Source: a virus. From it: a stretch of DNA of 54,471 nucleotides. Of the stretch, positions 6,174-54,327 are shown piece after piece. The translations under genes and the position numbers were made by a program. The DNA lies in IMG/VR virus record IMGVR_UViG_3300035688_000006, positions 1 through 54,471 of that record; one strand, written 5' to 3'. Each line of letters starts with the position of its first letter. Position 1 is the first letter of the stretch. Below the pieces are notes generated by a model that did no database searches, was not told the DNA's origin, and was given only the letters and a program-made list of their open reading frames with translations.

Positions 6174-6872
6174 TTATTTCTCCTTCATCAGCCTCTCAAG
6201 ATTCGTTTTCTTTTTTATGGGAACGCCGGCCACGGTTAGCATATAAATAAATCTCTCAACCTTTTCCCACAACGGCTCCTCTAATCCGCATCCCTTTGAA
6301 TCGGCACCTATGTTCACAAACTCTGGCTTTAGATTCATGAGCATAAGCGCCAGACCATCGGGGTCGAAATCAAGAATCGGCTCGACGGTGATAAAGATTT
6401 TAGCCGACGTTCTTTCCCTGAGTGAAAGCATGTCCAGAAAGCGCTTCATCGGCGGAGGGGCCATCGAGAGTCCGGGAACCACCCTGTTCGTCTCGATCGT
6501 CGTCCCGATCATAAAATGTGGAGGAAAAGAATCAATCAGAGACCTGGCTCTCCCTGGATTCTTTGTCTGAAAAATGTACTCATTATCCGGATACGCCTTA
6601 CAATGATTGAGTATCGAAAATATCATCCCTCCCGGCACCGCCTCCGCAAACATATCGTTCATGTGCTCGATGAAGATGATTTTCCCGGCACCGTAGTTGA
6701 CCCCGAACTCCGACTGAATCAACCGAAGGGGCCCACTATACCTAGCGCCTGGGCCGAACGCGCTCCGTTGCACGTAACAGTACTTGCACTTATGCGGGCA
6801 CTCGCCGCCCAGGTGAGAATGGGTATGCGTCACCCAGTCGTACATGTTGCCTTTGGATTTTTTCAAGCTCAC
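6174..6872 (-). CDS. Radical SAM-like protein of the phage Gp37/Gp68 (DUF5131) type
   Basis: Translation most likely starts at GTG 6872, which overlaps the stop of the upstream gene (GTGA) behind a GGAGA site; a longer frame runs through that gene. The 232-residue product has an early CPHKCKYC cluster (C25, C29, C32; a CX3CX2C radical SAM-type [4Fe-4S] site), followed by a TIM-barrel-like run with FIEHMNDMF, YIFQTKNP, IGTTIETN and TVEPILDF segments. These are hallmarks of the DUF5131 family found in many phages. The chemistry and substrate of this family are not known. It may modify DNA, RNA or a protein using S-adenosylmethionine. Confidence 0.75.
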   Translation of the reverse strand: MSLKKSKGNMYDWVTHTHSHLGGECPHKCKYCYVQRSAFGPGARYSGPLRLIQSEFGVNYGAGKIIFIEHMNDMFAEAVPGGMIFSILNHCKAYPDNEYIFQTKNPGRARSLIDSFPPHFMIGTTIETNRVVPGLSMAPPPMKRFLDMLSLRERTSAKIFITVEPILDFDPDGLALMLMNLKPEFVNIGADSKGCGLEEPLWEKVERFIYMLTVAGVPIKKKTNLERLMKEK

Positions 6873-7120
6873 GGCATCTCCTTGATTACTATTTTTTCTT
6901 CTTTTACTCTGCCTTCGATTTTTCCCTTTACGTTTTTCGCCCAAAAGTTAATCGTCACGAGCGGATAGGCGGATCCTGTCATCATTCGGCTTTCGACCCT
7001 AGCTCCGCATATTCCCTCAATCTTCTTACCGTCTATCTTCAAAAAGAACTCCGGCTCGATGCCGACCTTGGATGGGAAATTGATTTCCACCTCATGGAGT
7101 TTGTCTCCAAATGCGCTCAT
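6869..7120 (-). CDS. Hypothetical beta-rich protein, 83 aa
   Basis: The product alternates short hydrophobic strands with charged turns throughout, suggesting a small beta sandwich. Its stop overlaps the GTG start of the radical SAM gene, so the two are co-translated, which hints at a partner or substrate-presenting role. No motif is recognised. Confidence 0.55.
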   Translation of the reverse strand: MSAFGDKLHEVEINFPSKVGIEPEFFLKIDGKKIEGICGARVESRMMTGSAYPLVTINFWAKNVKGKIEGRVKEEKIVIKEMP

Positions 7121-7133
7121 TGATTTATGCTCC

Positions 7134-24447: not shown

Positions 24448-25611
24448 TTAAAGAATTCTTAAATTTACAGATCGGAATATCTTTCCATTAGGGTATGTTC
24501 CCGCCAGCGCAATTCCGTTGCCCAAATAGGCAATAGAAAAGATATGGGTTTCCGCCGCCTGTTGTCCAAGGTCTGTCCAAGTAGCCCCATAATCCGTAGA
24601 GCGGAATATCTTTCCATGCAGGGCCGTTCCCGCCAGCGCAATTCCGTTGCCCAAATAGGCAAGAGAAAGGATATAGGTTTCCGCCGCCTGTTGTCCAAGA
24701 TTCGTCCAAGTAGCCCCATAATCCGTAGATCGGAATATCTTTCCATTAGGGTATGTTCCCGCCAGCGCAATTCCGTTGCCCAAATAGGCAAGAGAATAGA
24801 TATGGGTTTCCGCCGCCTGTTGTCCAAGGTCTGTCCAAGTAGCCCCATAATCCGTAGATCGGAATATCTTTCCATGCCCGCCTGTTCCCGCCAGCGCAAT
24901 TCCGTTGCCCAAATAGGCAAGAGAAAGGATATAGGTTTCCGCCGCCTGTTGTCCAAGATCCGTCCAAGGATAACGCCCAAGATCTTCGGTCAATCCCATC
25001 AATGCACCAAAAACACCTGGATAATAATTTTCGGCCATAGCCGAAATATTAATTCCCTTGGATTCGATAATTTTGGTGATATGTAAGTGATCAAATATTG
25101 GCCCATCCGTATCTTTTAAGTTATTTATGTTGGCTTTTTGTGCCGCATGAATATGATCTCTTCTTGAGGCATATAAGGAGATTCCATCTGCGGCCGTACC
25201 TATTTCAACCGGATCGCCCTCCGCGTCATTGAATGAATATACGGAACTTTTTAGATTTCCAAGTTGATCGAATACTCCATCAAGAGTCCATGTATCTCCA
25301 ACCGCAAGAGTCCCTTTCCAGATTTGTCTTGTCCCTCCCGACGAAACATATCTAATCGTAACGACTACGGCCGCCGTGTCCCTATTCTGTATTGTTATCG
25401 CTTTAATAATCCTTTGAGTGCTCGCCCCAGGGGAGGCAACCAAAGTAACTGGCGTAGTCCCGTTCAAAACCCCATCATTCGAGCCCTCAAGAAAAGAAGA
25501 AGTTGTAGCATCGGCATAATGAGCCGTAAAATCAGGATTTGTGGTAGCAGCCGCACCCGCCATGATGGCCGTTATGCTTTTAGTCGTTGCGTCAAGAATT
25601 AATATTTTCAT
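24448..25611 (-). CDS. Adhesin-like tail protein with four near-identical BNR-type repeats
   Basis: ATG 25611 overlaps the previous stop and follows a GGAG site. The first ~230 residues form a beta-rich base with a RRDHIHAAQK segment like that of fibre trimer bases. Then come four 43-residue repeats (GKIFRSTDYGATWTDLGQQ type) of the BNR/photosystem-assembly beta-propeller family. Repeats alternate in type: YILSL with GGHG or ALHG, and HIYSL/HIFSI with YPNG. Four blades are too few for a closed propeller, so the array may be a truncated or oligomeric adhesin. Near identity at DNA level shows recent expansion. A role in surface binding is inferred. Confidence 0.6.
   Translation of the reverse strand: MKILILDATTKSITAIMAGAAATTNPDFTAHYADATTSSFLEGSNDGVLNGTTPVTLVASPGASTQRIIKAITIQNRDTAAVVVTIRYVSSGGTRQIWKGTLAVGDTWTLDGVFDQLGNLKSSVYSFNDAEGDPVEIGTAADGISLYASRRDHIHAAQKANINNLKDTDGPIFDHLHITKIIESKGINISAMAENYYPGVFGALMGLTEDLGRYPWTDLGQQAAETYILSLAYLGNGIALAGTGGHGKIFRSTDYGATWTDLGQQAAETHIYSLAYLGNGIALAGTYPNGKIFRSTDYGATWTNLGQQAAETYILSLAYLGNGIALAGTALHGKIFRSTDYGATWTDLGQQAAETHIFSIAYLGNGIALAGTYPNGKIFRSVNLRIL
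24471..24986. repeat. Four tandem 129-bp repeats
   Basis: Units begin at about 24471, 24600, 24729 and 24858, exactly 129 bp apart, and are nearly identical. The last diverges after about 115 bp. They encode the four propeller-type repeats. Substitutions cluster at the same few codons in each unit. Confidence 0.85.
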
Positions 25612-26561
25612 AATAGCCAACTCCTTTGTTTAGACTCAATTATTGATGCGGTCAATCCGGCAATGGCGGCCTGATTCAACGTCGCCCAGGCCGGTATAGC
25701 GCCCGTAACTCCGGCCAGATATTCTCCCGTTGCCCCTACCGCCGCGAGTTCGCCGATAGTATTCGCCGCCATAGCCACCGGCAACCGGAAGGCCGTCGCC
25801 GAGTTAGGCAGAATCAGCGTTGACCAAAGGGGAGCCGCGCCGACCCCGCCGCTCCGGAGATAGGAACCTACGGCAACGTCGGCGAGGGCCGCTAGGTTAG
25901 TCGTGGCCGAAGCATAGAGAATATCTCCTATGGCCAGGGCAGCTATATGAACTCCATCCACTAGATCAACGTTGAGATTCGTGCATTTAGTTGTGGACGT
26001 GACATTGAGAGGCATCGTCCCTATCGCTAAAGATGAGACGATCTGGCCTATGACCGTGATCACCCCGGCGGTAGAGATTTGAAGAATAGCTGCCGACCAG
26101 GATGCTCCATCGTGATGATGGATTTTTAGAGCATAAGTCTCAGCCAAATCCCTAATTGACAGACACCAGGTTTTATCGCCGCCTTCGTTTCGTAAATAAA
26201 AACAGGCATATCCACCCGTAGAATTCGTGCCTACCAAAGCTAGTGCTGCATTCGTAGCATTTGCGATTGTAAATTGCGCTGCTACCGGATCGGTCATCGG
26301 CGACGTGCCGCCGAGAACTATGGCCGTCGCACTTGCCCGATATAGAGGACTGTCTGCCACGGCACCTGCGGCAGTAGCGTAAGGCATATAACCCGCCGCA
26401 AGCGCAACATTCGAGGCGAGTTGGCCCGCCGCGTTCGTGACAACGAGCCTCGAGGCCGTCAGAGCTACGCCACCGCTGACAACTGCCCGGACATCGTTCA
26501 ATCGTAGTTTTAGCTCAGCAATCTGGCCCCGAATTTTGCTGAGATCGTCTTGAACACTCAT
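25608..26561 (-). CDS. Tail fibre-like protein, 317 aa
   Basis: After a short coiled-coil start (about 1-28), the protein is low in charge and rich in Ala, Thr, Val, Ser and Gly, with repeated short strands and a GGDKTWCLSIRD segment. This is a composition typical of trimeric phage fibres and their carbohydrate-binding parts. It is co-translated with the BNR-repeat adhesin and the distal tail protein. It likely forms an extended fibre shaft. Exact homology is not recognised. Confidence 0.6.
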   Translation of the reverse strand: MSVQDDLSKIRGQIAELKLRLNDVRAVVSGGVALTASRLVVTNAAGQLASNVALAAGYMPYATAAGAVADSPLYRASATAIVLGGTSPMTDPVAAQFTIANATNAALALVGTNSTGGYACFYLRNEGGDKTWCLSIRDLAETYALKIHHHDGASWSAAILQISTAGVITVIGQIVSSLAIGTMPLNVTSTTKCTNLNVDLVDGVHIAALAIGDILYASATTNLAALADVAVGSYLRSGGVGAAPLWSTLILPNSATAFRLPVAMAANTIGELAAVGATGEYLAGVTGAIPAWATLNQAAIAGLTASIIESKQRSWLL

Positions 26562-31638: not shown

Positions 31639-32115
31639 ATGAGGATCGAGGGTCGCCCATACCCTATGACAGGAAGACATCATTCCCGGGCAGCAAGAAA
31701 GAAAATGTCTGAGGCGATACAGCATTATTTGGCTGCTCGTCGCAAAGCGGGACTTCCCCATTTTCTGGCCGGGAGAAAACGGCCTGAAGATCAAATCGAG
31801 AAACAACGCCAGACGATGAAAGGCCGTTATAAAGGCTCCGCAAACCCGGCCTGGAAAGGCGGACGGAAAATCAATCTCGGCTATTTTTATGTTCTTTGTC
31901 CTGGTCATCCAGAGGCTAATTCCCTCGGCTACGTCCGAGAGCACCGCCTTGTGATGGAGAAGAAACTTGGGCGTCTTCTCCGGCCCGGAGAAATTGTCCA
32001 CCATATCAACGGGATTAAGACGGACAACCGGCCCGAAAATCTCAGCCTTTTTCCGAGTAATAAGGCGCACAGCGATTTTCACCAGATTTGTCCCCATTGC
32101 GGTAAGCGCCTTTAG
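31639..32115 (+). CDS. HNH homing endonuclease with NUMOD3-like motifs, opposite strand
   Basis: The 158-residue protein carries two NUMOD3-like DNA-binding motifs (GRHHSRAARKKMSEA and a second near 47-70) followed by an HNH core EHRLVMEKKLGRLL, EIVHHINGIKTDNRPENLSLF and a terminal CPHCGK ribbon. It is inserted between the tail tube and tail terminator genes on the opposite strand and ends 9 bp from the terminator stop. In the same frame upstream, 16 codons from ATG 31564 end at an amber (31612-31614), then continue to ATG 31639. The real start may therefore be lost or moved; no ribosome site is visible before 31639. Confidence 0.75.
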   Translation: MRIEGRPYPMTGRHHSRAARKKMSEAIQHYLAARRKAGLPHFLAGRKRPEDQIEKQRQTMKGRYKGSANPAWKGGRKINLGYFYVLCPGHPEANSLGYVREHRLVMEKKLGRLLRPGEIVHHINGIKTDNRPENLSLFPSNKAHSDFHQICPHCGKRL

Positions 32116-32123
32116 CTCGCTTT

Positions 32124-32543
32124 TCATAGCCTTGTTATCCTGAAAATAAAATTCATGCTGAATGAAAATACGCCTTTCTCCTCCGGATTCTCCAAGGGAT
32201 AGGGAGGGCTGACGCCATCAATCGTGTTCGCCAGATATTCCTCTCCCGACATGAGGACCGGCAATCGCCAGCCAGCTTGGCCATGCAGAAAATTGAATAT
32301 CTCATACGCCATGGCCCGGGCCGTGAAGTAGCTCTCAGCCTTGACGAGGACTTGGATCTCCTTCTGCTGGTAGTCCGGCCAGTCCCCATCCGTAGCACTC
32401 GGCGTTCTCTCGAGTACCACCGCCAACCGGATCGGCGGCTCCGTCCCGCTGGGCCGCCTGGTAGGCAGATGGCCACTGAATAGATTGACACCCAGCACGA
32501 AAGATGTATGGTCCTCGATGAACTGCGTGATCTCCTCGAGCAT
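32124..32543 (-). CDS. Tail terminator-like protein
   Basis: The 139-residue alpha/beta protein has a MLEEITQFIEDH opening, an IRLAVVLERTPSATDGDWPDYQQKEIQVLVKA core and FSFSMNFIFRITRL end. This is the profile of minor capsid/tail terminator proteins of siphoviruses that cap the tube and join it to the neck. It lies just upstream of the tail tube in the operon, separated from it only by the inserted HNH gene. Function is assigned by position and pattern. Confidence 0.65.
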   Translation of the reverse strand: MLEEITQFIEDHTSFVLGVNLFSGHLPTRRPSGTEPPIRLAVVLERTPSATDGDWPDYQQKEIQVLVKAESYFTARAMAYEIFNFLHGQAGWRLPVLMSGEEYLANTIDGVSPPYPLENPEEKGVFSFSMNFIFRITRL

Positions 32544-32956
32544 CAGGATCCTCCCGCCGCCTTCGCTATCTCGTCCGCGACGTATTTCATGTACTTCTCC
32601 TTATTCCTGGCCAGCTTCGTGCTTAGGAACTTTGGTCCCGACCCTGCTAATGTCCAATTCACTTGTTTTTCGCCGTATTGTTCGCTGGGTACCCACTCAT
32701 GAACTCGGGCAGCATAATCGGCATTGAATCCGGCCTCGACGCTTATATCGTCCGACGTGATATCAGGCGTTTCGATATGCTGAGTGCGTCTGAGATTTCC
32801 GGTTTTTTTCGGGACCGTAGGTTCTTCGCGCAGCGCATCCCTTATCACGAGCGCCCCCGCCCTGAAAAGAGCGTCGGCCGCGACCCTGGGAATGGTATTC
32901 TTCACGATCTCTGCGAACTTCATATCGAAATCCTTTGTATCTACCTCGAAACTCAT
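32543..32956 (-). CDS. HK97 gp10-like neck protein
   Basis: The 137-residue product matches the HK97 gp10 pattern: an N-terminal amphipathic helix, a basic RAGALVIRDALREEP segment, TGNLRRTQHI, then YAARVHEWVPSEQ and a C-terminal helical tail. These proteins sit in the neck or assist head-tail joining. It overlaps both neighbours by a few bases, as usual in this module. Confidence 0.75.
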   Translation of the reverse strand: MSFEVDTKDFDMKFAEIVKNTIPRVAADALFRAGALVIRDALREEPTVPKKTGNLRRTQHIETPDITSDDISVEAGFNADYAARVHEWVPSEQYGEKQVNWTLAGSGPKFLSTKLARNKEKYMKYVADEIAKAAGGS

Positions 32957-33258
32957 CTGACCAGCGCCTCCTTGTGATGGATATGAATCTGATTCTGCGG
33001 AGTGCTCAACTCCGCAATGGGATGGTCTTTGCCGTCGAACCGGAGGTAACTCTGATTCGTAGCCACTGAATTAGCTTTCAAAAAGACCTTTGCATAGCAA
33101 AGGATTTCCTGACCGCCCGTCGTCCGCACGAGCCTGTTCATGTACTCGATCCGGCACTTCTCCGGCGTGAGGACAATCACTCCCGTAGGTTCGCCCCATT
33201 TATCGTACTCCGCATCCACAACAACGCAATGATTTATGAGGAGGGAATTATAGCTCAT
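32953..33258 (-). CDS. Head-tail connector (stopper-like) protein
   Basis: The 101-residue beta-rich protein opens with a strand pair, has a GVIVLTPEKCRIEY stretch and a basic C-terminus, the build of SPP1 gp16-like stopper proteins. Position between the head-completion and gp10-like genes in siphovirus order supports this. In this genome it is separated from the head-completion gene by the 5-kb glycosyltransferase cassette. Confidence 0.6.
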   Translation of the reverse strand: MSYNSLLINHCVVVDAEYDKWGEPTGVIVLTPEKCRIEYMNRLVRTTGGQEILCYAKVFLKANSVATNQSYLRFDGKDHPIAELSTPQNQIHIHHKEALVR

Positions 33259-33790
33259 GCGTCACCACGATATAGAAGAACGGATTCTCCCGGATAATCT
33301 CATGCTTCCAGGCCTTGAATAATTTCTCCAGGCCCGCCGCATCATAGACTCGCAGGTGCCCGGGATCCGACACCTTTATCGTAGGGGTCGTGAACACGGC
33401 CTTCATCCTGGCCATCTCCACTACCGCCTTCGCAAACTCGGCGTCTGATTCGACGTGTTCCAGGACTTCGGAGCAAACGACCGAATCGAACCGCCCGGCG
33501 AGATTTGGCAACTCTTTGACTGTGTTAAGATAAATCCATCTCATGGACGGAAAAAGCCCCGCGGCCTTTACGATCGCCGGCTTTGAGAATTCCAAGCCCG
33601 ACCAATCTCCTCCTCGGAAGCCGGCCATGATTTGTGTGGAATGACCGAAGGCACACCCTACATCGCAGAACGACAGGCCGGCGACCAATTCCGCGCACCT
33701 CTTGAGCCTCGCCTGATGCTTGGGCCATTTTAAGTGAGTCCACACTTCTCTAGGCGCCCAATGCTTTTCCAGGTAATCGGTCGCGTTCAT
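33248..33790 (-). CDS. Class I SAM-dependent methyltransferase
   Basis: The 180-residue protein shows methyltransferase motif I as LSFCDVGCAFGHS (about 39-51), motif II/III with WSGLEFSKPAIV, and a motif IV region FDSVVCSEVLEHVE typical of Methyltransf_11 enzymes acting on small molecules, sugars or lipids. It overlaps both the connector gene and the second methyltransferase, so it is expressed with virion genes. Within the cassette it may methylate a sugar placed by the neighbouring glycosyltransferases. The substrate is unknown. Confidence 0.8.
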   Translation of the reverse strand: MNATDYLEKHWAPREVWTHLKWPKHQARLKRCAELVAGLSFCDVGCAFGHSTQIMAGFRGGDWSGLEFSKPAIVKAAGLFPSMRWIYLNTVKELPNLAGRFDSVVCSEVLEHVESDAEFAKAVVEMARMKAVFTTPTIKVSDPGHLRVYDAAGLEKLFKAWKHEIIRENPFFYIVVTHEL

Positions 33791-34701
33791 CTTACCCTCT
33801 CGCTTATCCAGAGCTGACGTATTTCCCCGACTACCGGGAAATTCTTCGTCACCTTGAAGCTCTTCTTCGCCAAGGCCTCGGTGAGCCAGCCGTGAGTAGG
33901 CAGAGTTTGCGTTCCCGCCCTTGTCAGCCTTGCGCCTGGCCCAGGATCCAGCCTCAACTCGAGAATCAATAGCCGGCGCGCGACCGTTGCCATCGAATTA
34001 AGCGCCACCTCAAAATGATTCGCCGGAAAATAATGGGGAAGCCCAAGACAATGAACGATGTCAAAACTCTCCATGAACAGCGGCCCGGCAGCCAGCCAAT
34101 CGGCCTGCCGAAATGAAACCCTATTCTCGAGCTTGAGCTGAGCCGCAGCCTTCTTCGCCAAGGCCGCCATGTCTGATCTCAGCTCGATTCCGAGCGCGTT
34201 TTTCGCCCCGGCCAGCACGGATCCCAAGCAGACGAACCCACAATGGCTTCCGATGTCCAGTACGCTTGCCCCGCAATAATCGACCGCCTCTTCGAGGTGA
34301 CGCCACTTTTTATCCCTGCAGGCCGTGAGCCAGGCCAGGTCCTTTTTATCGCCTTTGACGTTGGCCTTGACCAGCGTCTCGAGTACCGTAAATAGGCTGG
34401 GATTGAAATGATGGCACCGAGCGTGGGCCTCGACCTGGACCGTACTCATGCCCCTTATCTTCGCAATATGCAGACGATGGGTCCCGTCCTCGAGCCTCCG
34501 GTGGACGCAACAATAATAAAGCGGCTTGAACTTCCCGCCATCAAAACCCTTGATGAGCTCTGCGATTCGGGCCTTCCAGGATGGCTTGTCCTTTCTCTGA
34601 TTGATATAGCTCCACAGGAACGCCAAGGCCGGGCTATCTACCTCGACCTCGATGATCTGCCCTGGATTGAGGAAGGCTATATCTTTATTTTCAATGCTCA
34701 T
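33787..34701 (-). CDS. Methyltransferase with ParB-like N-terminal domain
   Basis: Start at ATG 34701 (ATGA overlap). Residues 1-100 resemble a ParB/sulfiredoxin-type fold: an LNPGQIIEVEV strand and a DGTHRLHIAKIRGMSTVQVEA helix-turn segment. The C-terminal part is a class I methyltransferase with SVLDIGSHCGFVCLGSVLAG (motif I) and FDIVHCLGLPHYF (motif IV). ParB-like folds are often fused to DNA- or nucleotide-modifying enzymes in phages, but this one sits in a glycosyltransferase cassette, so sugar modification is also possible. It is co-translated with the second methyltransferase. Confidence 0.7.
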   Translation of the reverse strand: MSIENKDIAFLNPGQIIEVEVDSPALAFLWSYINQRKDKPSWKARIAELIKGFDGGKFKPLYYCCVHRRLEDGTHRLHIAKIRGMSTVQVEAHARCHHFNPSLFTVLETLVKANVKGDKKDLAWLTACRDKKWRHLEEAVDYCGASVLDIGSHCGFVCLGSVLAGAKNALGIELRSDMAALAKKAAAQLKLENRVSFRQADWLAAGPLFMESFDIVHCLGLPHYFPANHFEVALNSMATVARRLLILELRLDPGPGARLTRAGTQTLPTHGWLTEALAKKSFKVTKNFPVVGEIRQLWISERVR

Positions 34702-35357
34702 TGTCCCACTCTCGCCGCCCGACTTTGTTTCCAGACCTTCGCATAGAACGCCTCTCTCTCGTCCCGGGCACCTGGATTGTAATAGAGGCACCCAGGGCCG
34801 CTTGCGTCGGCCAAACTCACATAGTTTTTAGTCGGTACTATAATCTTTTTAACTTCCGGCCAAATACCGCATTGACAGAACAGGTCCTCGATGGCCGTAC
34901 CGCACCCCTTCAAGTCGTACGCCAACAAGCTCCTGTCGCACATCGTACAAACGCCGACGAAGTCTACCTGAACCGGCCTGTCAATTTGCCTTGCCGAATA
35001 GCACACGGTGTTTTTATAATATGCCGCTCCGTTGAACGTCCTGCCGTGGACTCCATAAAATGCCGTTCCGTATATTTTCCACGTTGCCAGGAAATCATCG
35101 ACCAGCCCGGCCTTCGGCATCACGTCGTCATCGGCCTTGAACACGAGCTCTCCGTTCGTCATCAGAGCCATAGCGTGACGTGCCTTGCTTCCGGGATCCG
35201 GGGAGAACCGGACATGCCTGACCCCATCCGGTGCCTTGAACGACGTTCCAGAACAATCGGCCAGCCACACTTCGTTTGCCTGGGCCAGCCAGCTCTTGAG
35301 GATCGGCCCGAGTGTCTCAAGCCTCCGGTAGCTCACTACAACCACACTAACGTCCAT
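34698..35357 (-). CDS. Family 2-type glycosyltransferase
   Basis: The 219-residue protein begins DVSVVVVSYRRLETLGPIL and has a central VFKADDDVMPK, the GT-A fold nucleotide-sugar site with the DXD metal motif. Later it has a Cys-containing acceptor region (GVCTMCDRS, GCGTAIEDLFCQCG). It likely transfers a sugar from an NDP donor. Acceptor and donor cannot be told. It overlaps the genes on both sides. Confidence 0.8.
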   Translation of the reverse strand: MDVSVVVVSYRRLETLGPILKSWLAQANEVWLADCSGTSFKAPDGVRHVRFSPDPGSKARHAMALMTNGELVFKADDDVMPKAGLVDDFLATWKIYGTAFYGVHGRTFNGAAYYKNTVCYSARQIDRPVQVDFVGVCTMCDRSLLAYDLKGCGTAIEDLFCQCGIWPEVKKIIVPTKNYVSLADASGPGCLYYNPGARDEREAFYAKVWKQSRAARVGQ

Positions 35358-35937
35358 CCGCTGCTCCCTGGATTAGATGATTTTCAGGACGTCCCCTACC
35401 TGCGACTGACTGCATCTTTGCCACCACGAGATCCAGCCACATGTGGTCTTTCGTCTTGCTATAACAACGGGCGATGAAACTGAAATCGCCTCCGAATCTC
35501 TGCCGCCCAAATTCGTGGATATATTTCCTCCAGATGTCCGTCCTGATAGCAAAGCAAAACGAAGCTATTTCCGTATAGAGAGGAGTCCTGCCCCAGCGTT
35601 CCGGACGCGGCAACGTCCCGAACCCAGCCGTTATTCCCTTAAAAAAGACGATCTCCGGAGTCCGACCCTCTATCTTCTTTTTGAATATCTCCACAAACCG
35701 CGGCTCGATTAGCTGGTCGTCGTCGTCCAGGACCATGACGTACTGCGCGTCGATGGATTTGATTTTCATAAAAGACTGATTCGCCAATAGCCCTCCATAT
35801 CCCGTCGGCGTCTTGTCGTCCCTGTGAATGATGTGGATGTAGTCCTCGTCCGTCTGGCTCTTGACCGACTCGATGCAGACCGCCAGCATCTTCGGCCGCT
35901 GCGGATGAACGCGGGTCACGAAGGCAATCGTTTTCAT
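35347..35937 (-). CDS. Family 2-type glycosyltransferase
   Basis: ATG 35937 lies in the stop of the upstream gene (ATGA); a longer frame through that gene is rejected. The 196-residue product starts KTIAFVTRVHPQRP and has QYVMVLDDDDQLIEPRF, the GT-A DXD site, and a GDFSFIARC segment. It is similar in build to the next gene but not identical, suggesting a sequential sugar chain assembled by distinct enzymes. Confidence 0.8.
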   Translation of the reverse strand: MKTIAFVTRVHPQRPKMLAVCIESVKSQTDEDYIHIIHRDDKTPTGYGGLLANQSFMKIKSIDAQYVMVLDDDDQLIEPRFVEIFKKKIEGRTPEIVFFKGITAGFGTLPRPERWGRTPLYTEIASFCFAIRTDIWRKYIHEFGRQRFGGDFSFIARCYSKTKDHMWLDLVVAKMQSVAGRGRPENHLIQGAADGR

Positions 35938-37445
35938 CGGTACTCCCACTGCTGTTCGATTTCCGGAAGGCCGCGCGCCGTCCGTATCGACCGCGTTCCT
36001 CGGGGAATGTGATGGATGTATTCTCTCAGCTCTCCCTTCCACGTGAACCCCTGGCCTGCCGAATGACCGAGGCCCACGAACTCTTTTAAAACCTTATTGG
36101 ACAGCCCCTTCTTGTAGATATCGAGCATCGTCAGAAAACACGGGGCCCCATGATGCACGTAGCGGTGATACTTTTTATAATTGCCGATGTCTATCAGTTG
36201 GAAATAAGGATGAAGATAAGGCATCCAGCCTTCGCTAACATGATGGGAGTGAGCTCCATAATTGTAGCCATCGAACCCTGTCTTTTCGATATACCCGACG
36301 CCGAACGTGTCCGGCTCCATCATGGCCAGCATGGCCTCCACCGGGGATTTCAGCATTTCGATATCCGAATCGAATACCAAGGCGTACCTCGTCCTGACTT
36401 TATCAAGCCCCATGCACAAGCCCCGGCCGTGCCCTATGTTATATCCCAGCGAAATGACGGTCGTCTTGTAAGAGGCGAGGCTCTTTACATAGGCGGCGCA
36501 TGGGTCGCCAGCGTCCGACCCGTCGATGATGATGATCGGCATGTCCGGATGGAACTTGCGAATCGAGTTATAGGCCCTCTCGATCAGCGCTTGCGAATTC
36601 CAGCACACTGAAACCCCTGTTATGGGAAGGACGTTGGGAAAATAGGATTTATAATTGTCCTCCGTCAGCTTCCCGTTCAGTATGTCCATGTAGACCCGGA
36701 AGTCTTTAGGCACCCACCGCTTGAGGATAGCCCTGTCTGAGCTGTCCACGGTTTTATAAAGCGTAGTCTTGTGACCCGCTCCGATCCCCGCGCGTCCGGG
36801 CAGCCCCTTCATCCCTAGATACAATGGCTTCTCCGTGTCGACGAAGAGATATCCAAGGCTCCCGGCTTTTTGCCATAACCGGGTGTCCAGGAATGGATTG
36901 CTACTCGCCTCGAGCAGCTCTTTAACTGTCGGGATGAACGAACTCTTGAACCCCGTTTCCGCAAGCGAAGCATGGGCCGTGTTCCCGATCTGCATGTAGC
37001 CGCCGGATACGATGTGATAATACTTGGCCCTCATGATTCCGACGACCCTATGCGCCTCCAACTGCCGGGACATTTCTTTGATGTAATCCGGGGCGTAATA
37101 CTCATCGTCCTCGATGATCACAACATTATCGCCCTGGATTAAGGGGAGCACAGCCCTCAGATTCAGGGCGAGCGTATGCTTCGGATCCTCCGGCTGCGGT
37201 TCTCTCCGTACATATTGCATGCCCCATGAAGGGATCATCGGCACCTTCCCGTCGTCCACTACGAGCCATTGGTCGGGAGGCCTTGTTTGGTTTCTCATCC
37301 ACTGCTGACAGAGAGCAAAGGCTAACGGCCTGTCCCCGGTCGGCGTGATAGCCGTGACCTTGGACCTGACCTTGGGCTTGGGCTTTTGGGGAGGCTTGGA
37401 TAAACCGTACTTTTTTACATTGTCCCGAAACCGACTGAGGGCCAT
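35934..37445 (-). CDS. Tandem two-domain glycosyltransferase
   Basis: This 503-residue protein carries two GT-A type domains. The N-terminal one (about 28-260) has VTAITPTGDRPLAF and VVIIEDDEYYAPDY; the C-terminal one (about 272-500) has PITGVSVCWNS, IIIIDGSDAG and YALVFDSDIEML. Both keep acidic DXD-like motifs, so both may be active. Two-domain enzymes often build a disaccharide repeat or act on protein. The C-terminal end has an extended basic tail. Confidence 0.8.
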   Translation of the reverse strand: MALSRFRDNVKKYGLSKPPQKPKPKVRSKVTAITPTGDRPLAFALCQQWMRNQTRPPDQWLVVDDGKVPMIPSWGMQYVRREPQPEDPKHTLALNLRAVLPLIQGDNVVIIEDDEYYAPDYIKEMSRQLEAHRVVGIMRAKYYHIVSGGYMQIGNTAHASLAETGFKSSFIPTVKELLEASSNPFLDTRLWQKAGSLGYLFVDTEKPLYLGMKGLPGRAGIGAGHKTTLYKTVDSSDRAILKRWVPKDFRVYMDILNGKLTEDNYKSYFPNVLPITGVSVCWNSQALIERAYNSIRKFHPDMPIIIIDGSDAGDPCAAYVKSLASYKTTVISLGYNIGHGRGLCMGLDKVRTRYALVFDSDIEMLKSPVEAMLAMMEPDTFGVGYIEKTGFDGYNYGAHSHHVSEGWMPYLHPYFQLIDIGNYKKYHRYVHHGAPCFLTMLDIYKKGLSNKVLKEFVGLGHSAGQGFTWKGELREYIHHIPRGTRSIRTARGLPEIEQQWEYR

Positions 37446-38209
37446 TAAACAACTCCTCCACCCAGGACCTCGTCTACGGTCTGAAATTCAAAACAGCGTA
37501 GTCCCGATCCTGGATTGAGATTGACGACTCTTGTCCCGGCCGCCTTGATCTTCGGCGCCCATTTCTCGAACGGACCCTTGTATTTGTCGAGCGTCTCCTG
37601 AGCCAGAGGCCTCGTATGCCCCTCGTGCCAGTGCGTCCCCGCGGGGCCGATCGTCATGTCGTAGCCGAGCAGGTAAATGGGATTTGCCCCTAACAGGAAC
37701 GCCAGATTCAACGCTCCAAAGCCGCTGTTGTCGCCGTGCCCGCAGCCCTCTTCCATTTTGAACGAAAAATTCTTCATCCCGAAGTCGTGATTCTTGAGCA
37801 CCCTGATTACAAAAATATCCTCCGGCAATTTGGCCGAATAGGTGAGGAGCCAGCACTTATACGCCGGCGTCTTTTCAAACTTCTCCTTTAACCCTGGGTA
37901 TATCTCGTCGTACCTTCCGTTCAATATCCAATGCAAAAACCGGGTGTCCATCGCGAACGCTACCGTCGGGTCGAAATAGTAAAACGCGAGATTGATACCG
38001 ATCGTTCGAAGCCCATCGAGCCTCTTCCAATCGAAGCCCTTCAAGCTCGGGCCTCCACCGACGATGAACGCCGGTCCGTCCGACCAGCATCCCGCCGGCA
38101 ACACTTCGGAGATTTGACGGTTTGAGATCGTCGGCGATTTGAATAGAATGGGAGCCCGGCCCAGAACCCAGGGGATCTGTTCTTTCATTTCCGCCAAGCT
38201 CTCCATCAT
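37445..38209 (-). CDS. DUF115/MAF-like (MptE-related Rossmann) protein
   Basis: The 254-residue protein has a glycine-rich GPAFIVGGGPSLKG loop (about 45-58), a following TIGINLAFYYFDPTVAFAMDT segment, GCGHGDNSGFGALNLAFLLGANPIYLLGYDM, and a His/Glu-rich stretch. This is the signature of DUF115-type proteins, related to nucleotide-sugar handling and to motility accessory factors that glycosylate flagellin. The gene opens the cassette, immediately after the head-completion gene. A role in sugar-nucleotide chemistry or transfer is likely. Confidence 0.7.
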   Translation of the reverse strand: MMESLAEMKEQIPWVLGRAPILFKSPTISNRQISEVLPAGCWSDGPAFIVGGGPSLKGFDWKRLDGLRTIGINLAFYYFDPTVAFAMDTRFLHWILNGRYDEIYPGLKEKFEKTPAYKCWLLTYSAKLPEDIFVIRVLKNHDFGMKNFSFKMEEGCGHGDNSGFGALNLAFLLGANPIYLLGYDMTIGPAGTHWHEGHTRPLAQETLDKYKGPFEKWAPKIKAAGTRVVNLNPGSGLRCFEFQTVDEVLGGGVV

Positions 38210-38862
38210 GGCGCCATAATGACGATCTTCTTCCGTCTGAACAGGGCGATGATATCATCCGCCTCTTTGATCCCCGTCTTGTATTTCGGCTGCCCGGGCA
38301 CGGACCCGAGCGAATAGGAATAACTGCCGATACTCTCCGAGGCGAACGCATAGGATGTGTAGAGGGTAGGGTCGATCGACGCTTCTGCCAGGATCTTCGC
38401 GACCTTCTTAATCCAGGCCGGCACCGCCGCGGGACCGCACTTCCCTACGACCCTGATATTGTTATAGCCCCTGGGGAAAATCCCCGTCGCTGAAACCGTG
38501 CTAAGCAGGTAATCCAGCTCGGGATTTCCGACTCCGGCGCCGCTTGCCGAGAGGTCTATGAAAACGCTGTTCTCATCCCACGTCCACCAGGTCGCGTCCA
38601 TCTCGATACCGCCCACGTACACGTGCGATACCTCTCTGATGTTCGACGTTAAGGGGAGGAACAGCCGATTTTTTCCGTTGCCGTTCAGCTTGATGTCGAA
38701 AGCCTTGTCGTAATAATGGACGCCCAGTGCCCTTTCCAGGATGGCCTCGGCCGTTTCGATGACCGCCTGCTTCTCCGCGTCCGATGTCCCCGTCTGCCAA
38801 TTCGATATATCGGCCGAATTTACATAATGGCCTTGGTAGTTAGGCAATTCTTCCCTCCACAT
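38206..38862 (-). CDS. Head completion/adaptor protein
   Basis: The 218-residue product follows the capsid region and has a helical N-terminal segment (DAEKQAVIETAEAILERALG), an FLPLTSNIREVSHVYVGG strand run, and later helical parts, the pattern of gp15-like head completion proteins that bind the portal ring. The gene overlaps the Vsr-like endonuclease gene by 23 bp at its start, a sign that the endonuclease was inserted next to it. Confidence 0.6.
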   Translation of the reverse strand: MWREELPNYQGHYVNSADISNWQTGTSDAEKQAVIETAEAILERALGVHYYDKAFDIKLNGNGKNRLFLPLTSNIREVSHVYVGGIEMDATWWTWDENSVFIDLSASGAGVGNPELDYLLSTVSATGIFPRGYNNIRVVGKCGPAAVPAWIKKVAKILAEASIDPTLYTSYAFASESIGSYSYSLGSVPGQPKYKTGIKEADDIIALFRRKKIVIMAP

Positions 38863-39388
38863 GGAAACGCTTGAGTTTTTCTATGAGGACGGCGAGATCC
38901 CTTAATTCAAGATTCCAAACAATCAATGTTTCATAACCCTGCAACTTGAAAAATTCTGTTCTCTTCTCCGCTTCTTCCTCATCATGATATCTGTCCCCGA
39001 ATAACTCTATTATTTTCTTCGAGCCCTCAGTGCTGACGAAATCTGGATTTTTCCCATCGACCATAAAGGAGAAGTCTCCGGTGAACAGATACTTTCCTGG
39101 GAAAAGAATTTGCAATAGAGCATTGAGACCATTCTCTGATTTGTTCGGCCCTTTTTTTCTGCCCAAATGTTGTTTGGCCGCGTATTCGGCCGTTTTCCAT
39201 AGAGCCTTTATCCGGTCACTATGGTCTGGGTTTTTCTTGCCGAACCGGGCTTTACTCATCGCATCGCATTGTGCCGGAGTTCTTTTAATCCCTTTGTGAG
39301 TAAGGTTCTGATGACCCAGCTTGAACTCTGTTCTAGGGCTTGTATGCCGCCCCTTTAGTGACTTACTTCGCGTTTCACTATACGGCAT
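38840..39388 (-). CDS. Vsr/EDxHD-like homing endonuclease
   Basis: The N-terminal 60 residues contain NUMOD3-like DNA-binding repeats (KGIKRTPAQCDAMSKARFGK). The C-terminal half has the Vsr/DUF559-type nuclease pattern NPDFV, KKIIELFGDRYHDEEEAEKR and LIVWNLELRD, matching homing enzymes such as the I-Bth0305I type (Asp, His, Asp/Glu metal site). The gene is inserted between the decoration-like and head-completion genes, and a hairpin (39413-39451) marks its upstream flank. Confidence 0.75.
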   Translation of the reverse strand: MPYSETRSKSLKGRHTSPRTEFKLGHQNLTHKGIKRTPAQCDAMSKARFGKKNPDHSDRIKALWKTAEYAAKQHLGRKKGPNKSENGLNALLQILFPGKYLFTGDFSFMVDGKNPDFVSTEGSKKIIELFGDRYHDEEEAEKRTEFFKLQGYETLIVWNLELRDLAVLIEKLKRFHVEGRIA

Positions 39389-39510: not shown

Positions 39511-40266
39511 TTACTCGACGTAGCGTTCAGCAACGCACTTGAAATAGTCGACGTAAAGGAATTTGCTGTCGGCCTCTCCGTTCCGGACACCGAAACAAAT
39601 CCGGAGTTCCTCGTCCTGGGGGAACCCCGTCGTGACGACGCCCGTCGCAAGGCAAACCCGGTAATCGTCGAATACGAACCAGCGCAGGTTGCCGGCTCCG
39701 TCCCAGTGGAAGCCGATCCTGTACCAGGTAAAGGCCTCCAAGTTGACATCCGTGTCCGTGTCCGTAACCACCGCGTTGTCCTCGCAGGCGAAGATGAGGG
39801 AAGCGTTTCCGTCGTCCTTCCTAAAATAGACGCCATGATTTCCGCCCGCGGCATAGTAGCCAAGCGCATCGAGCAGCCCGGCGTAGAACTCGGACTCGTC
39901 CGTGTCGCTCAGCAGGAACCGCATCTCGAAATACATGGGGAAGGCGTCGTACAGGCGCCAGGTTTCATGATTCTGATACCTTTCGGCATAGGCGTCATCG
40001 GTCTGCGCTTGCGGTGAAAACAGCATAACCCCGTTCACCATGTCCGTCACTTCGACCGACCCGCCGGCTGCGGTATTCGTCCAGTCGTCGACTTCCTCAT
40101 TATAGAAGTCGTCCTGGAGCCTGACGCAGCTCGAGATGTCGATGTAGCTTTTGAGCCAGTGCCACTTCTGGAAATTGATGTCGATGTTCAGCGGGAACAC
40201 GTCCATCAAATAGTTCTCGCACACGTCTCCGCCCAAATCACTGTGTGGGAAATGTTCATTGTCCAT
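39511..40266 (-). CDS. Lectin-fold capsid decoration-like protein
   Basis: The 251-residue protein is strand-rich with aromatic repeats: FYNEEVDDW, MYFEMRFLLSDTDESEFYAG, NHGVYFRKDDGNASLIFAC and WYRIGFHWDGAGNLRWFVFDDYRV. This is the concanavalin-type jelly-roll pattern of many phage structural and carbohydrate-binding proteins. It follows the capsid gene and a small SAP-like protein, so a capsid surface or decoration role is likely. Carbohydrate binding is inferred from fold pattern only. Confidence 0.6.
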   Translation of the reverse strand: MDNEHFPHSDLGGDVCENYLMDVFPLNIDINFQKWHWLKSYIDISSCVRLQDDFYNEEVDDWTNTAAGGSVEVTDMVNGVMLFSPQAQTDDAYAERYQNHETWRLYDAFPMYFEMRFLLSDTDESEFYAGLLDALGYYAAGGNHGVYFRKDDGNASLIFACEDNAVVTDTDTDVNLEAFTWYRIGFHWDGAGNLRWFVFDDYRVCLATGVVTTGFPQDEELRICFGVRNGEADSKFLYVDYFKCVAERYVE

Positions 40267-51071: not shown

Positions 51072-51533
51072 ATGATTATCTATTGCAGTTCGTGTCTTCT
51101 CGGGAAGCAATGCCTCTGGCATGGTAATATTCTTAAATTCTCGGCAGGGGGAATCGCGATGATTGCTGCGGCTGGCCATATCTTCATCGATTCCTGCCCC
51201 GAGATACTTGGCGGTTTGTCTTGTCCTCGCCCCCCTTCTTATCGCAGGCCTAATCGCCCGGGCCTGCTCATCGCGGCCGGCAAGGACGTCACGCCGGCGT
51301 TCGAACTCGGGGCAAGGCGGGCGCTGGCATTTCTGCGCGAAGCGCGGCCGCGTCCAGAGCTCGCCCTCCTGTTGGCCAAAAGTCCCTCCTGCGATCCCGG
51401 CTTCGGGATATTTGGCCGCGAAGCGGCAAAATTTATCCACGCGATCGCCTGCAATCGCAAGGATGGCCTCTGGCTCGAGCAGGCCTTGAAATTCTTGCAT
51501 ATCCTTCCACCTCAACGATATTTATTCCAATAG
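51072..51533 (+). CDS. DUF523/TudS-like [Fe-S] thiouracil desulfidase-like protein
   Basis: Start ATG 51072 after AAGGAG. The 153-residue protein shows the DUF523 signature: CLLGKQC near the start (C8, C14), SCPEILGGLSCPRPPS (about 41-56), KDVTPAFELGARRAL (about 71-85) and SPSC (104-107). Characterised relatives (TudS) use a [4Fe-4S] cluster to remove sulfur from 2-thiouracil. It is one of only two convincing plus-strand genes, has its own promoter and converges with the ParB-PP-loop gene (22-bp overlap), as for a moron gene. Substrate in the phage is unknown; thio-modified RNA or DNA is a hypothesis. Confidence 0.75.
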   Translation: MIIYCSSCLLGKQCLWHGNILKFSAGGIAMIAAAGHIFIDSCPEILGGLSCPRPPSYRRPNRPGLLIAAGKDVTPAFELGARRALAFLREARPRPELALLLAKSPSCDPGFGIFGREAAKFIHAIACNRKDGLWLEQALKFLHILPPQRYLFQ

Positions 51534-52708
51534 TTATAAAAATAATCAATATTATTATCACCTGAATGGCGAGGAAATTTCAAGGTCATTGCCAAGATGC
51601 GCATTTCTTCCCAAAGCATTGGATAACATGTTTGGAGCGCTTCCCACTGAGGACTGGATTTACTTTTTCCTTGAAATGGACACATCCAACAAGCTGTTCT
51701 CTTAAATCCCCGAACATAACCAGGCCAAAGCAATCCCTCTGCTTTTTTTAATAATTCCTCATACTCATCCTTTGATGTTTTGAAATAGGGGGAATAACTT
51801 AATCCCTTCGAGGATAAATGTACCGATGATCTTCGGGTACGACTTATAATTTGATCGGGTCGCCCTCCCCTTATTTTCAAAACCTTGACCGGGTCCGTAT
51901 TATCTATCGTCTTCTCTATAACATCGTTTATGAACATATGTTGGCAATCTCGATATATGGGGTCTGGCCATTTCCCTTTCTGAATATAATGCGCTATGAT
52001 ATTTTCTGTCGCATGTAGTATACGGAGATTGAATCCTTGTGCCTTCGCCAGACGCAAAATATACGCTATTAAATCTGGAAATTCGGCCCCCGTTTCAACA
52101 AATAAAGCCTCAAATGATTTCCCAATAATTTCACAAGCTTTTTTAGTCCAATATAAGGCGAGAAGAGAATCTTTGCCGCCACTGAATTCAACAAAAATAT
52201 ATTCAAAATTCGCCAACCAGATAAGCTTATCTTCGGGTATTTGCGGAAGATCCGGAAGTTTAATTAAATTATCCAATTGATTTCCACCTGGTCCATATTG
52301 TTCAATTATATTTTTTAAATTTACCGCCTTTCCTAGATCGATCTTATAATCCTCAAGATTAATTTCTTCAAAATGCGGATATACCAGTTCGGCCAATTTA
52401 TCCTCGAGATATTCCCCCGCCCGATCATTGTCCGAGAGCGCGTATTTTATCTTTTCCGCTTTCGTCTCAGCCCTGACGACTGATATTTCAACATCTTTAT
52501 GGCCAAGTTCCAGAAGTGCCCTTATCCTCATATTCCCGCCGAGCGTTATGAATCCGCCGTTCTCCTCAACGCAGATGAGCGGCTTATAAATTCCGAGGTC
52601 CTGGATCTGCCGCTTCAGACGCCCAAAGTCGGCGGTCTTGATATTTCTGGGATTTTCCGCCCATGGCTTGACGAACTCAATTGAGACTTTCCGGATGTCC
52701 ATTCCCAT
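51512..52708 (-). CDS. ParB-like domain fused to DndC/PAPS reductase-like PP-loop protein
   Basis: Residues 1-130 form a ParB-like domain (NPRNIKTADFGRLKRQI, ITLGGNMRIRALLELGH). From about 165 on there is a PP-loop ATPase: FVEFSGGKDSLLALYW (SGGKDS 176-181), LFVETGAEFPDL, then FKRTACWMCPF with C340 and C343. Cysteines C255 and C361 could complete a Fe-S site, as in DndC and IbrA. DndC inserts sulfur into DNA backbones with partners that are absent here; IbrB/IbrA join ParB- and PAPS-reductase-like proteins as separate chains. The reaction here is unknown; nucleic-acid or cofactor thiolation is the natural hypothesis. Confidence 0.75.
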   Translation of the reverse strand: MGMDIRKVSIEFVKPWAENPRNIKTADFGRLKRQIQDLGIYKPLICVEENGGFITLGGNMRIRALLELGHKDVEISVVRAETKAEKIKYALSDNDRAGEYLEDKLAELVYPHFEEINLEDYKIDLGKAVNLKNIIEQYGPGGNQLDNLIKLPDLPQIPEDKLIWLANFEYIFVEFSGGKDSLLALYWTKKACEIIGKSFEALFVETGAEFPDLIAYILRLAKAQGFNLRILHATENIIAHYIQKGKWPDPIYRDCQHMFINDVIEKTIDNTDPVKVLKIRGGRPDQIISRTRRSSVHLSSKGLSYSPYFKTSKDEYEELLKKAEGLLWPGYVRGFKRTACWMCPFQGKSKSSPQWEALQTCYPMLWEEMRILAMTLKFPRHSGDNNIDYFYNYWNKYR

Positions 52709-53922: not shown

Positions 53923-54327
53923 CTAAAATCTAAATTTAACAAAATCTCCGCGCCTCCTCGGGGAATCGTCGGGAAAACTGATGAAGGTGAGTTTGTAGAG
54001 ACCGTTCTCTGATTCTAATCCGACCGGGTACGCTCGGTAAACTGTTAGCCACGTTTTTTTTGCCGATACAATTCCTCCGGCCGCCCGTTTCAAAATGAGT
54101 TTCTTGGATTCGGCATACACCGATGCCGGCTTCATCCTGGCCTTTATGAGCTTACGGAGCACGACTCTCAAGCCCGAGTTGCCCTCAAAAGTGCATTGGA
54201 ATTTGAGAACCGATGTGTAAAGCCCCGCGTTCTTTTGAACTGCCATACAGTCTTTTGCCAAGCCGAGCTCCTTCTTGTCCCACACTACCTTGCATGGACC
54301 CAGGTCTGATACGTAATTCGGGCTCAC
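53923..54327 (-). CDS. Diverged tail-tube paralogue
   Basis: GTG 54327 overlaps the stop of the 30-aa gene (GTGA). The 134-residue protein keeps landmarks of the major tail protein at 30954-31475: DLGPCKVVWD near the start (compare DIGPCQVTWD), WLTVYRAYP (compare WLHIYHAHP) and KLTFISFPDD (compare VKFLVFPSLD). It lacks about 40 residues. It is coded 22 kb away, near the packaging end. It may be a minor tube or tip-ring subunit, or a host-directed relative. Confidence 0.6.
   Translation of the reverse strand: MSPNYVSDLGPCKVVWDKKELGLAKDCMAVQKNAGLYTSVLKFQCTFEGNSGLRVVLRKLIKARMKPASVYAESKKLILKRAAGGIVSAKKTWLTVYRAYPVGLESENGLYKLTFISFPDDSPRRRGDFVKFRF

Follow-up and report, generated by a model that had tools for sequence, protein, structure and literature searches.

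What do glycosyltransferases and methyltransferases modify when their genes are set between the head-completion and connector genes of a phage? The question arises from an IMG/VR virus record of 54,471 bases (IMGVR_UViG_3300035688_000006; the whole stretch is referred to here as the window), in which six consecutive genes occupy positions 38209–33248 of the minus strand, each overlapping the next and the flanking connector genes by 1–11 nucleotides (nt). Throughout this phage group the late head-to-tail operon includes the first of the six, a DUF115 gene, with an exchangeable set of enzymes behind it. The cassette is predicted to be a cytoplasmic module that builds a glycan on a virion protein, a function to which we assign a probability of roughly 0.55.

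Constancy of the slot was assessed with baits free of DUF115, namely the major capsid protein, the tail tube and, in addition, the adjoining adaptor protein; the resulting locus sets overlap and contain near-identical phages, and their counts are not independent. With the capsid as bait (62 loci), DUF115 is present in 43/43 loci having at least 2,389 bases downstream, at a distance of 1.3–4.4 kb. The other 19 are shorter, one of them still carrying DUF115, and L012, with 2,149 bases downstream of the capsid, stops within the adaptor. The adaptor protein search yields 14 loci, one of them from the window's own phage (100% identity), and the adaptor alignment yields 44. Three of these end at the adaptor; of the other 41, 40 have DUF115 next. 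The exception, L117, matches the adaptor weakly (E = 4e-6) and has 513 bases remaining, and in seven adaptor loci the matched segment ends 0.87–1.1 kb before DUF115, with a small extra open reading frame (ORF) or a longer adaptor gene between. Of the 41 loci found with the tail-tube bait, 26 extend 8.5 kb or more upstream, and 25 of these contain DUF115; the miss (L197) is the contig of L007 (IMGVR_UViG_3300031355_000070), whose unusually long cassette has a DUF115-to-tube distance of 14.3 kb. With DUF115 itself as query, 268 relatives are found in IMG/VR, of which 80 were kept; separately, the contigs of bacterial and archaeal genomes yield 11, including Candidatus Aminicenantes. A literature search on DUF115 in phages and together with Maf, judged by titles, found no description of the neck slot.

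A second lineage combines different head genes with the same Hc1-gp10-TrT-tube genes and the same cassette start. Its genes upstream of DUF115 match only PHROGs of unknown function, except in L123 (connector, E = 5.5e-4), so a position between adaptor and head closure is established for the first lineage alone. In this second lineage the gene immediately before Hc1 encodes a minor head protein and does not belong to the cassette; because it was included, the cassette gene counts and spans given for the lineage are one or two genes too large.

Behind the constant DUF115 gene, the content of the cassette changes extensively. The 279 proteins of 41 distinct cassettes form 95 clusters, and 77 cluster representatives were scanned with Pfam after dropping eight below 100 amino acids, two minor-head or unknown clusters, one 576-residue cluster and seven L127 proteins. 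Methyltransferases (PF13489, 12 members) and GT2 (six) are commonest, followed by GT9, GT1-like and sulfotransferase matches (three each) and FkbM and LicD (two each), with single matches to an epimerase, a GDP-mannose dehydratase, a deacetylase and a radical-SAM protein; a cupin is another recurrent cassette protein. The hidden Markov model (HMM) labelled GTGT is contaminated by DUF115 fusions, and its count of 135 ORFs in 119 loci was not used; some GTGT locus labels are affected. Compared with its nearest structural relative, L005, the window is 73% identical in the tube, 69% in the capsid and 57% in DUF115, with none of the five downstream genes in common. Its double glycosyltransferase, by comparison, is 65% identical in L092, although the tubes there share only 26%, and, within the same comparison against 34 other cassettes having a tube gene, the best common cassette gene is 61% identical in L073, 59% in L080 and 57% in L084. 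Over 595 pairs, which are not independent, tube identity has a rank correlation of 0.48 with DUF115 identity and of 0.17 with the fraction of cassette genes held in common; DUF115 thus keeps to the virion genes more closely than the genes behind it. Between L008 and L009/L011, cassette dN/dS is 0.04–0.14, with one ORF at 0.28 whose length differs, and that of virion genes is 0.025–0.14; the cassette genes of this group are under purifying selection like the virion genes.

The family, fold and putative CMP pocket of the DUF115 protein resemble those of GT42/Maf enzymes. PF01973 (DUF115, MptE-like, MAF_flag10) matches 44 of 45 family members at E ≤ 0.01, the best at 8.5e-12; the window protein alone reaches 20.6 bits, under the cut-off of 34.6. 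An AlphaFold2 (AF2) model of the window protein (mean predicted local distance difference test score, pLDDT, 76; predicted template modelling score, pTM, 0.80) has as its best fold match the catalytic domain of Maf (5mu5; Z 14.7 over 202 residues, obtained via re-alignment), with residues 22–251 of its 254 aligned to 253–512 of the 632-residue Maf chain. HPPK (Z 10.6) and CstII/CstI (Z about 10) come next; Foldseek alone is uninformative for this model, its top matches being short-chain dehydrogenases at E 0.0067 and none lower. The 45-sequence DUF115 profile reaches CstII at 1.5e-5, CstI at 4.9e-4, Maf at 0.19 and HPPK at 0.3. Specifically, CstII residues N31, S132, G152 and D154, which we take to act in binding of cytidine monophosphate (CMP), align with window residues N73, S162, G182 and D184, as counted on the alignments, and these are conserved in the DUF115 family. 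By its modelled fold and its putative CMP-pocket positions, DUF115 is thus a GT42/Maf-type protein. An MptE/HPPK-like pterin function was rejected because the neighbouring genes are glycan-type, despite an HPPK Z-score similar to that of CstII.

Gene fusions tie DUF115 to predicted sugar transfer. L016 encodes DUF115, the double glycosyltransferase and a further glycosyltransferase in a single 956-residue ORF, L054 and L114 contain two DUF115 copies within a 1093-residue ORF, and in L042 a 902-residue GT9-methyltransferase fusion directly follows DUF115.

The layout of the window is compact. Adjacent genes overlap by 4 nt (Ad1/DUF115), 1 nt (DUF115/double glycosyltransferase), 4 nt (double/first single glycosyltransferase), 11 nt (between the single glycosyltransferases), 4 nt (second single glycosyltransferase/methyltransferase 1, MT1), 4 nt (MT1/methyltransferase 2, MT2), 11 nt (MT2/head-closure-like) and 4 nt (head-closure-like/HK97 gp10-like). 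MT1 starts at the ATG at 34701 and not at the GTG at 34791; base composition equals that of the surroundings, and a nucleotide search of the cassette region against phage records gave no match. Across cassettes, 272 of 309 junctions overlap or are separated by at most 10 nt, a figure that can overstate overlap but not understate it, because the in-frame start nearest the preceding stop was used. The sequence-only reading, which had described six gapless genes and named their types, holds for coordinates, order and flanks, and Pfam, PHROG and NCBIfam matches agree with it on the DUF115-like protein, the double glycosyltransferase and the methyltransferases (Table 1; the first half of the double enzyme also matches TIGR04440 at 1.2e-6). 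Its two single glycosyltransferases match PF00535 only under the cut-off but carry D-rich, DxD-like motifs; the ParB-like N-terminus that it gave MT1 is not confirmed, comparison with Pfam, NCBIfam, PHROGs, PDB sequences and the ParB protein of the window itself yielding no match. It had also argued for a virion target from translational coupling. Coupling as such is weak evidence. Tight overlap alone is ordinary, being found between gp10 and the tail terminator as well, and it is the recurrence of the arrangement in all testable relatives that goes beyond chance.

Other substrates can be weighed against this gene content. The second half of the double glycosyltransferase matches the GtrB-like phrog_841 (E = 4.9e-4), as would suit lysogenic conversion of the GtrABC serotype kind, or other moron genes brought by chance into the late operon. 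We regard such an origin as very unlikely: the six include no flippase or membrane glycosyltransferase, DUF115 is never missing from the long capsid loci, and a late-operon place with such overlaps would give little expression in a lysogen. No hydrophobic segment reaches KD19 ≥ 1.6 in the six proteins (highest 1.48), and membrane-type proteins are scarce in cassettes generally (9/279 at KD19 ≥ 1.9). Hypermodification of DNA bases, which glycosyltransferases and methyltransferases sharing one phage operon might suggest, is extremely improbable, as the genes sit in the virion operon, no hydroxymethylating enzyme occurs among the six cassette genes, to which that check applied, and the sulfotransferase, LicD and deacetylase genes of relatives suit glycans.

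Relatives of DUF115 also occur in cultured phages. A tblastn search with PAJU2 gp10, the DUF115 protein of that phage, matches 70 records, and the 60 listed include PAJU2, D3 (orf7), PMG1, P1 (pmgO), P7 (hdmB), SJ46, Eowyn and Caulobacter phages; all hosts named among these 60 are Gram-negative, apart from an alga recorded for three, and some entries are blank. In P1 (L224), pmgO (DUF115), pmgP, ppp and pmgQ (glycosyltransferase) are consecutive in the pmg region. The adjoining pmgP (6501–7127) encodes a second DUF115-like protein (E = 1.4e-11), and it and pmgO are both recorded with 'putative morphogenetic function'. PAJU2 and Eowyn carry DUF115, a GT9-like protein and a methyltransferase consecutively, the PAJU2 set lying between Hc1 and the gp10-type neck gene; D3 has the GT9-like and methyltransferase genes in the PAJU2 place and DUF115 between capsid and Ad1. 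The GT9-like gene occurs in 16 loci, in 10 of them with a methyltransferase, several being the same phage; its name derives from Pfam matches of the homologous L042 protein, PAJU2 gp11 itself having none. PAJU2 DUF115 (ORF010) is labelled 'structural protein' by the depositors, one of four such labels among ORF002–ORF040, and Eowyn DUF115 is labelled likewise in its record. These labels would fit a structural or sugar-binding virion protein devoid of transferase activity, with the other genes unrelated. That explanation is quite unlikely given the conserved CMP-pocket positions, the fusions of DUF115 to glycosyltransferases and the presence of glycosyltransferase and methyltransferase neighbours throughout.

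The virion-glycan reading draws on the constancy of DUF115 among connector genes, the glycosyltransferase fusions, the likeness to Maf and CstII, the paucity of membrane proteins and the virion-like purifying selection, and additionally from the PAJU2 label. In the proposed sequence of events, DUF115 would transfer a CMP-activated host sugar, CMP-Kdo (Kdo, 3-deoxy-D-manno-octulosonate) or a CMP-nonulosonate, to Ser/Thr of a freshly synthesized virion protein, in the cytoplasm and during late expression; the downstream glycosyltransferases would lengthen the sugar, which the methyltransferases would then cap. The operon position would keep cassette expression in step with that of the structural proteins, and exchange of the downstream genes would alter the type of virion glycan. 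The virion target put forward from sequence alone is favoured by the glycan-type enzymes, their ties to the operon across relatives, the missing membrane segment and a first gene of the GT42/Maf type, a class that O-glycosylates flagellin, but the acceptor half of that proposal found no counterpart.

Several observations weigh against glycosylation of the virion. CstII is a lipo-oligosaccharide enzyme, the DUF115 profile lies nearer to it than to Maf, and the N- and C-terminal domains of Maf are missing from the DUF115 protein. No member of the window's phage group is known from culture. PAJU2-type tails occur without any insert in Vibrio P2, Stenotrophomonas SOVA965 and Klebsiella KPP5665-2; the neck proteins of these three, and of PAJU2, do not match the window's HMMs, and the three are therefore relatives of PAJU2 and not of the window. 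A Ser/Thr-rich acceptor stretch, which the sequence-only reading had suggested seeking, is present in none of 26 window proteins (S+T 7.5–16.8%, best 11/30 residues). None of 33 phage records, many of which are fragmentary, matches a CMP-sugar synthetase, and the host would therefore need to supply the donor. P1 pmgO, pmgP, ppp and pmgQ are non-essential in the laboratory, as stated in the available text of PMC10695390, and the accessible portion of the P1 virion proteome paper (PMC9024508) makes no mention of PmgO, which also tells against DUF115 being a structural protein. Ser/Thr richness is not strictly defining, in that Maf too lacks a defined sequon according to the available part of PMC11339370.

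Host genomes bear on both donor and target. Among eight genomes with relatives, whose phage contigs are possibly misbinned in these metagenome-assembled genomes, NeuB is found in three, CTP_transf_3 in six at E ≤ 0.001 (five over the cut-off) and LpxC in six, which makes a host CMP-sugar donor and a lipopolysaccharide target both plausible. The target of the enzymes may be host lipopolysaccharide, or some other precursor of a surface glycan, modified on the cytoplasmic side during late infection, the virion operon providing only late timing; the purpose could be, for example, to block re-adsorption of progeny to debris or to exclude competitors. The sequence-only reading had named a host glycan as its alternative, and host lipopolysaccharide remains the main rival, one that we hold possible but doubtful. 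Families GT42 and GT9 include cytoplasmic lipopolysaccharide-core enzymes that need no flippase, and the pairing of GT9-like and methyltransferase genes with DUF115 and the Gram-negative hosts described above fit it as well. A constant place among connector genes is, however, not expected of an accessory exclusion trait, the six window proteins have no membrane anchor, and PAJU2 DUF115 is recorded as a virion protein.

A tentative and rather unlikely extension of the virion-glycan reading has the phages drawing on host precursors. DUF115 would move Kdo from CMP-Kdo to a virion protein, GT9-like or GT2 enzymes would add, for example, heptose, and methyl, sulfo or LicD groups would cap a lipopolysaccharide-core-like glycan; the slot would be a phage serotype locus swapped over a constant virion backbone, with the laboratory phages P1 and D3 carrying a minimal version that has gone unnoticed. 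To our knowledge, CMP-Kdo is the sole CMP-sugar of E. coli K-12, and we know of few cases of phage virion glycosylation. A slot always filled, with one anchoring enzyme and variable genes behind it, has the look of a serotype locus, and if the proposal is true, particle glycosylation would be a permanent feature of an entire group of uncultured phages. Since relatives occur in D3, PAJU2 and P1, it is testable in laboratory phages.

Further genes of the window deserve mention. The concanavalin-A-fold protein, whose model best matches GH16 glucanases and L-type lectins (Z 17–19; first 45 residues of low confidence), could be a lectin-like head decoration or a glycan acceptor. Two endonuclease-like genes are found within the virion operon: one (38840–39388, minus) adjoins the adaptor, with a weak match to the homing endonuclease phrog_314 (E = 0.022), and the other, HNH-like as read from its sequence, is set between tail terminator and tube on the other strand (31639–32115, plus); similar ORFs occur in 11 and 7 loci, respectively. 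Past the terminase gene and close to the end of the contig, a gene for a 134-residue protein (53923–54327, minus) is a second one of the tail-tube type, shorter and remote from the tail operon; its product matches the tube profile at E = 3.2e-13. In the protein at 51512–52708 (minus), a ParB-like domain precedes one resembling phosphoadenosine-phosphosulfate reductase (phrog_620, 1.9e-15; phrog_424, 7.7e-20). The translation of a tail-region gene (24448–25620, minus) contains about four near-identical repeats (GKIFRSTDYGATWTDLGQQ...).

Table 1. The cassette, its borders and a conserved late-operon neighbour in the window.
Feature	Coordinates	Strand	Evidence
Concanavalin-A-fold protein, late operon, conserved before adaptor in lineage 1	39511..40266	-	PF22237 7.5e-5; AF2 model
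Head-tail adaptor (Ad1-like), upstream border of slot	38206..38862	-	phrog_442 head-tail adaptor, E 1.1e-17
DUF115, predicted GT42-Maf-like glycosyltransferase, constant first cassette gene	37445..38209	-	phrog_4603 1.8e-27; PF01973 in 44/45 relatives; fold; CstII profile
Double GT-A glycosyltransferase	35934..37445	-	PF00535 1.5e-17, 64.5 bits, GT2, two matched stretches
Glycosyltransferase (GT2-like, sub-threshold)	35347..35937	-	PF00535 3.4e-4, 21.0 bits vs cut-off 23.3; DDDD motif
Glycosyltransferase (GT2-like, sub-threshold)	34698..35357	-	PF00535 0.0031, 17.9 bits vs cut-off 23.3; DDD motif
Methyltransferase 1 (MT1)	33787..34701	-	PF13649 2.6e-9; ~110 N-terminal residues unassigned
Methyltransferase 2 (MT2)	33248..33790	-	PF08241 4.5e-8
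Head-closure-like connector, downstream border of slot	32953..33258	-	phrog_793 0.0034, weak; position before gp10 conserved
HK97 gp10-like neck/tail protein	32543..32956	-	PF04883; phrog_5 3.5e-11

Among known systems, the Maf flagellin glycosyltransferases share the catalytic-domain fold (the PF01973 central domain) and, as a proposed parallel, O-glycosylation of a self-assembling structural protein; Maf takes CMP-Kdo and CMP-Neu5Ac, as reported in the available part of PMC11339370. Unlike Maf, the window protein is phage-borne, stands among neck genes with exchangeable glycosyltransferase and methyltransferase genes and has no outer domains. The GT42 sialyltransferases CstI and CstII resemble DUF115 in sequence profile and fold, but act on lipo-oligosaccharide, whereas the window's family matches PF01973. 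GtrABC serotype conversion differs in that the cassette's six genes include neither a membrane flippase nor a membrane-bound glycosyltransferase. Mycobacteriophages such as Che8 and its relatives, to which the sequence-only reading had drawn a parallel, also encode glycosyltransferases, and in Che8 and Rita the glycan is covalently attached to the major capsid proteins, as told in the accessible text of PMC11256854. The same text places the Maravista glycosyltransferase genes near the genome 3' end and tells of no DUF115 anchor or fixed neck slot, so the parallel misfits in position. P1, P7 (hdmB), D3, PAJU2 and Eowyn carry DUF115 relatives, accompanied in P1 by a second DUF115 and a glycosyltransferase and in PAJU2, Eowyn and D3 by a GT9-like protein and a methyltransferase; unlike the window, they carry two to four such genes rather than six, at other places in the genome.

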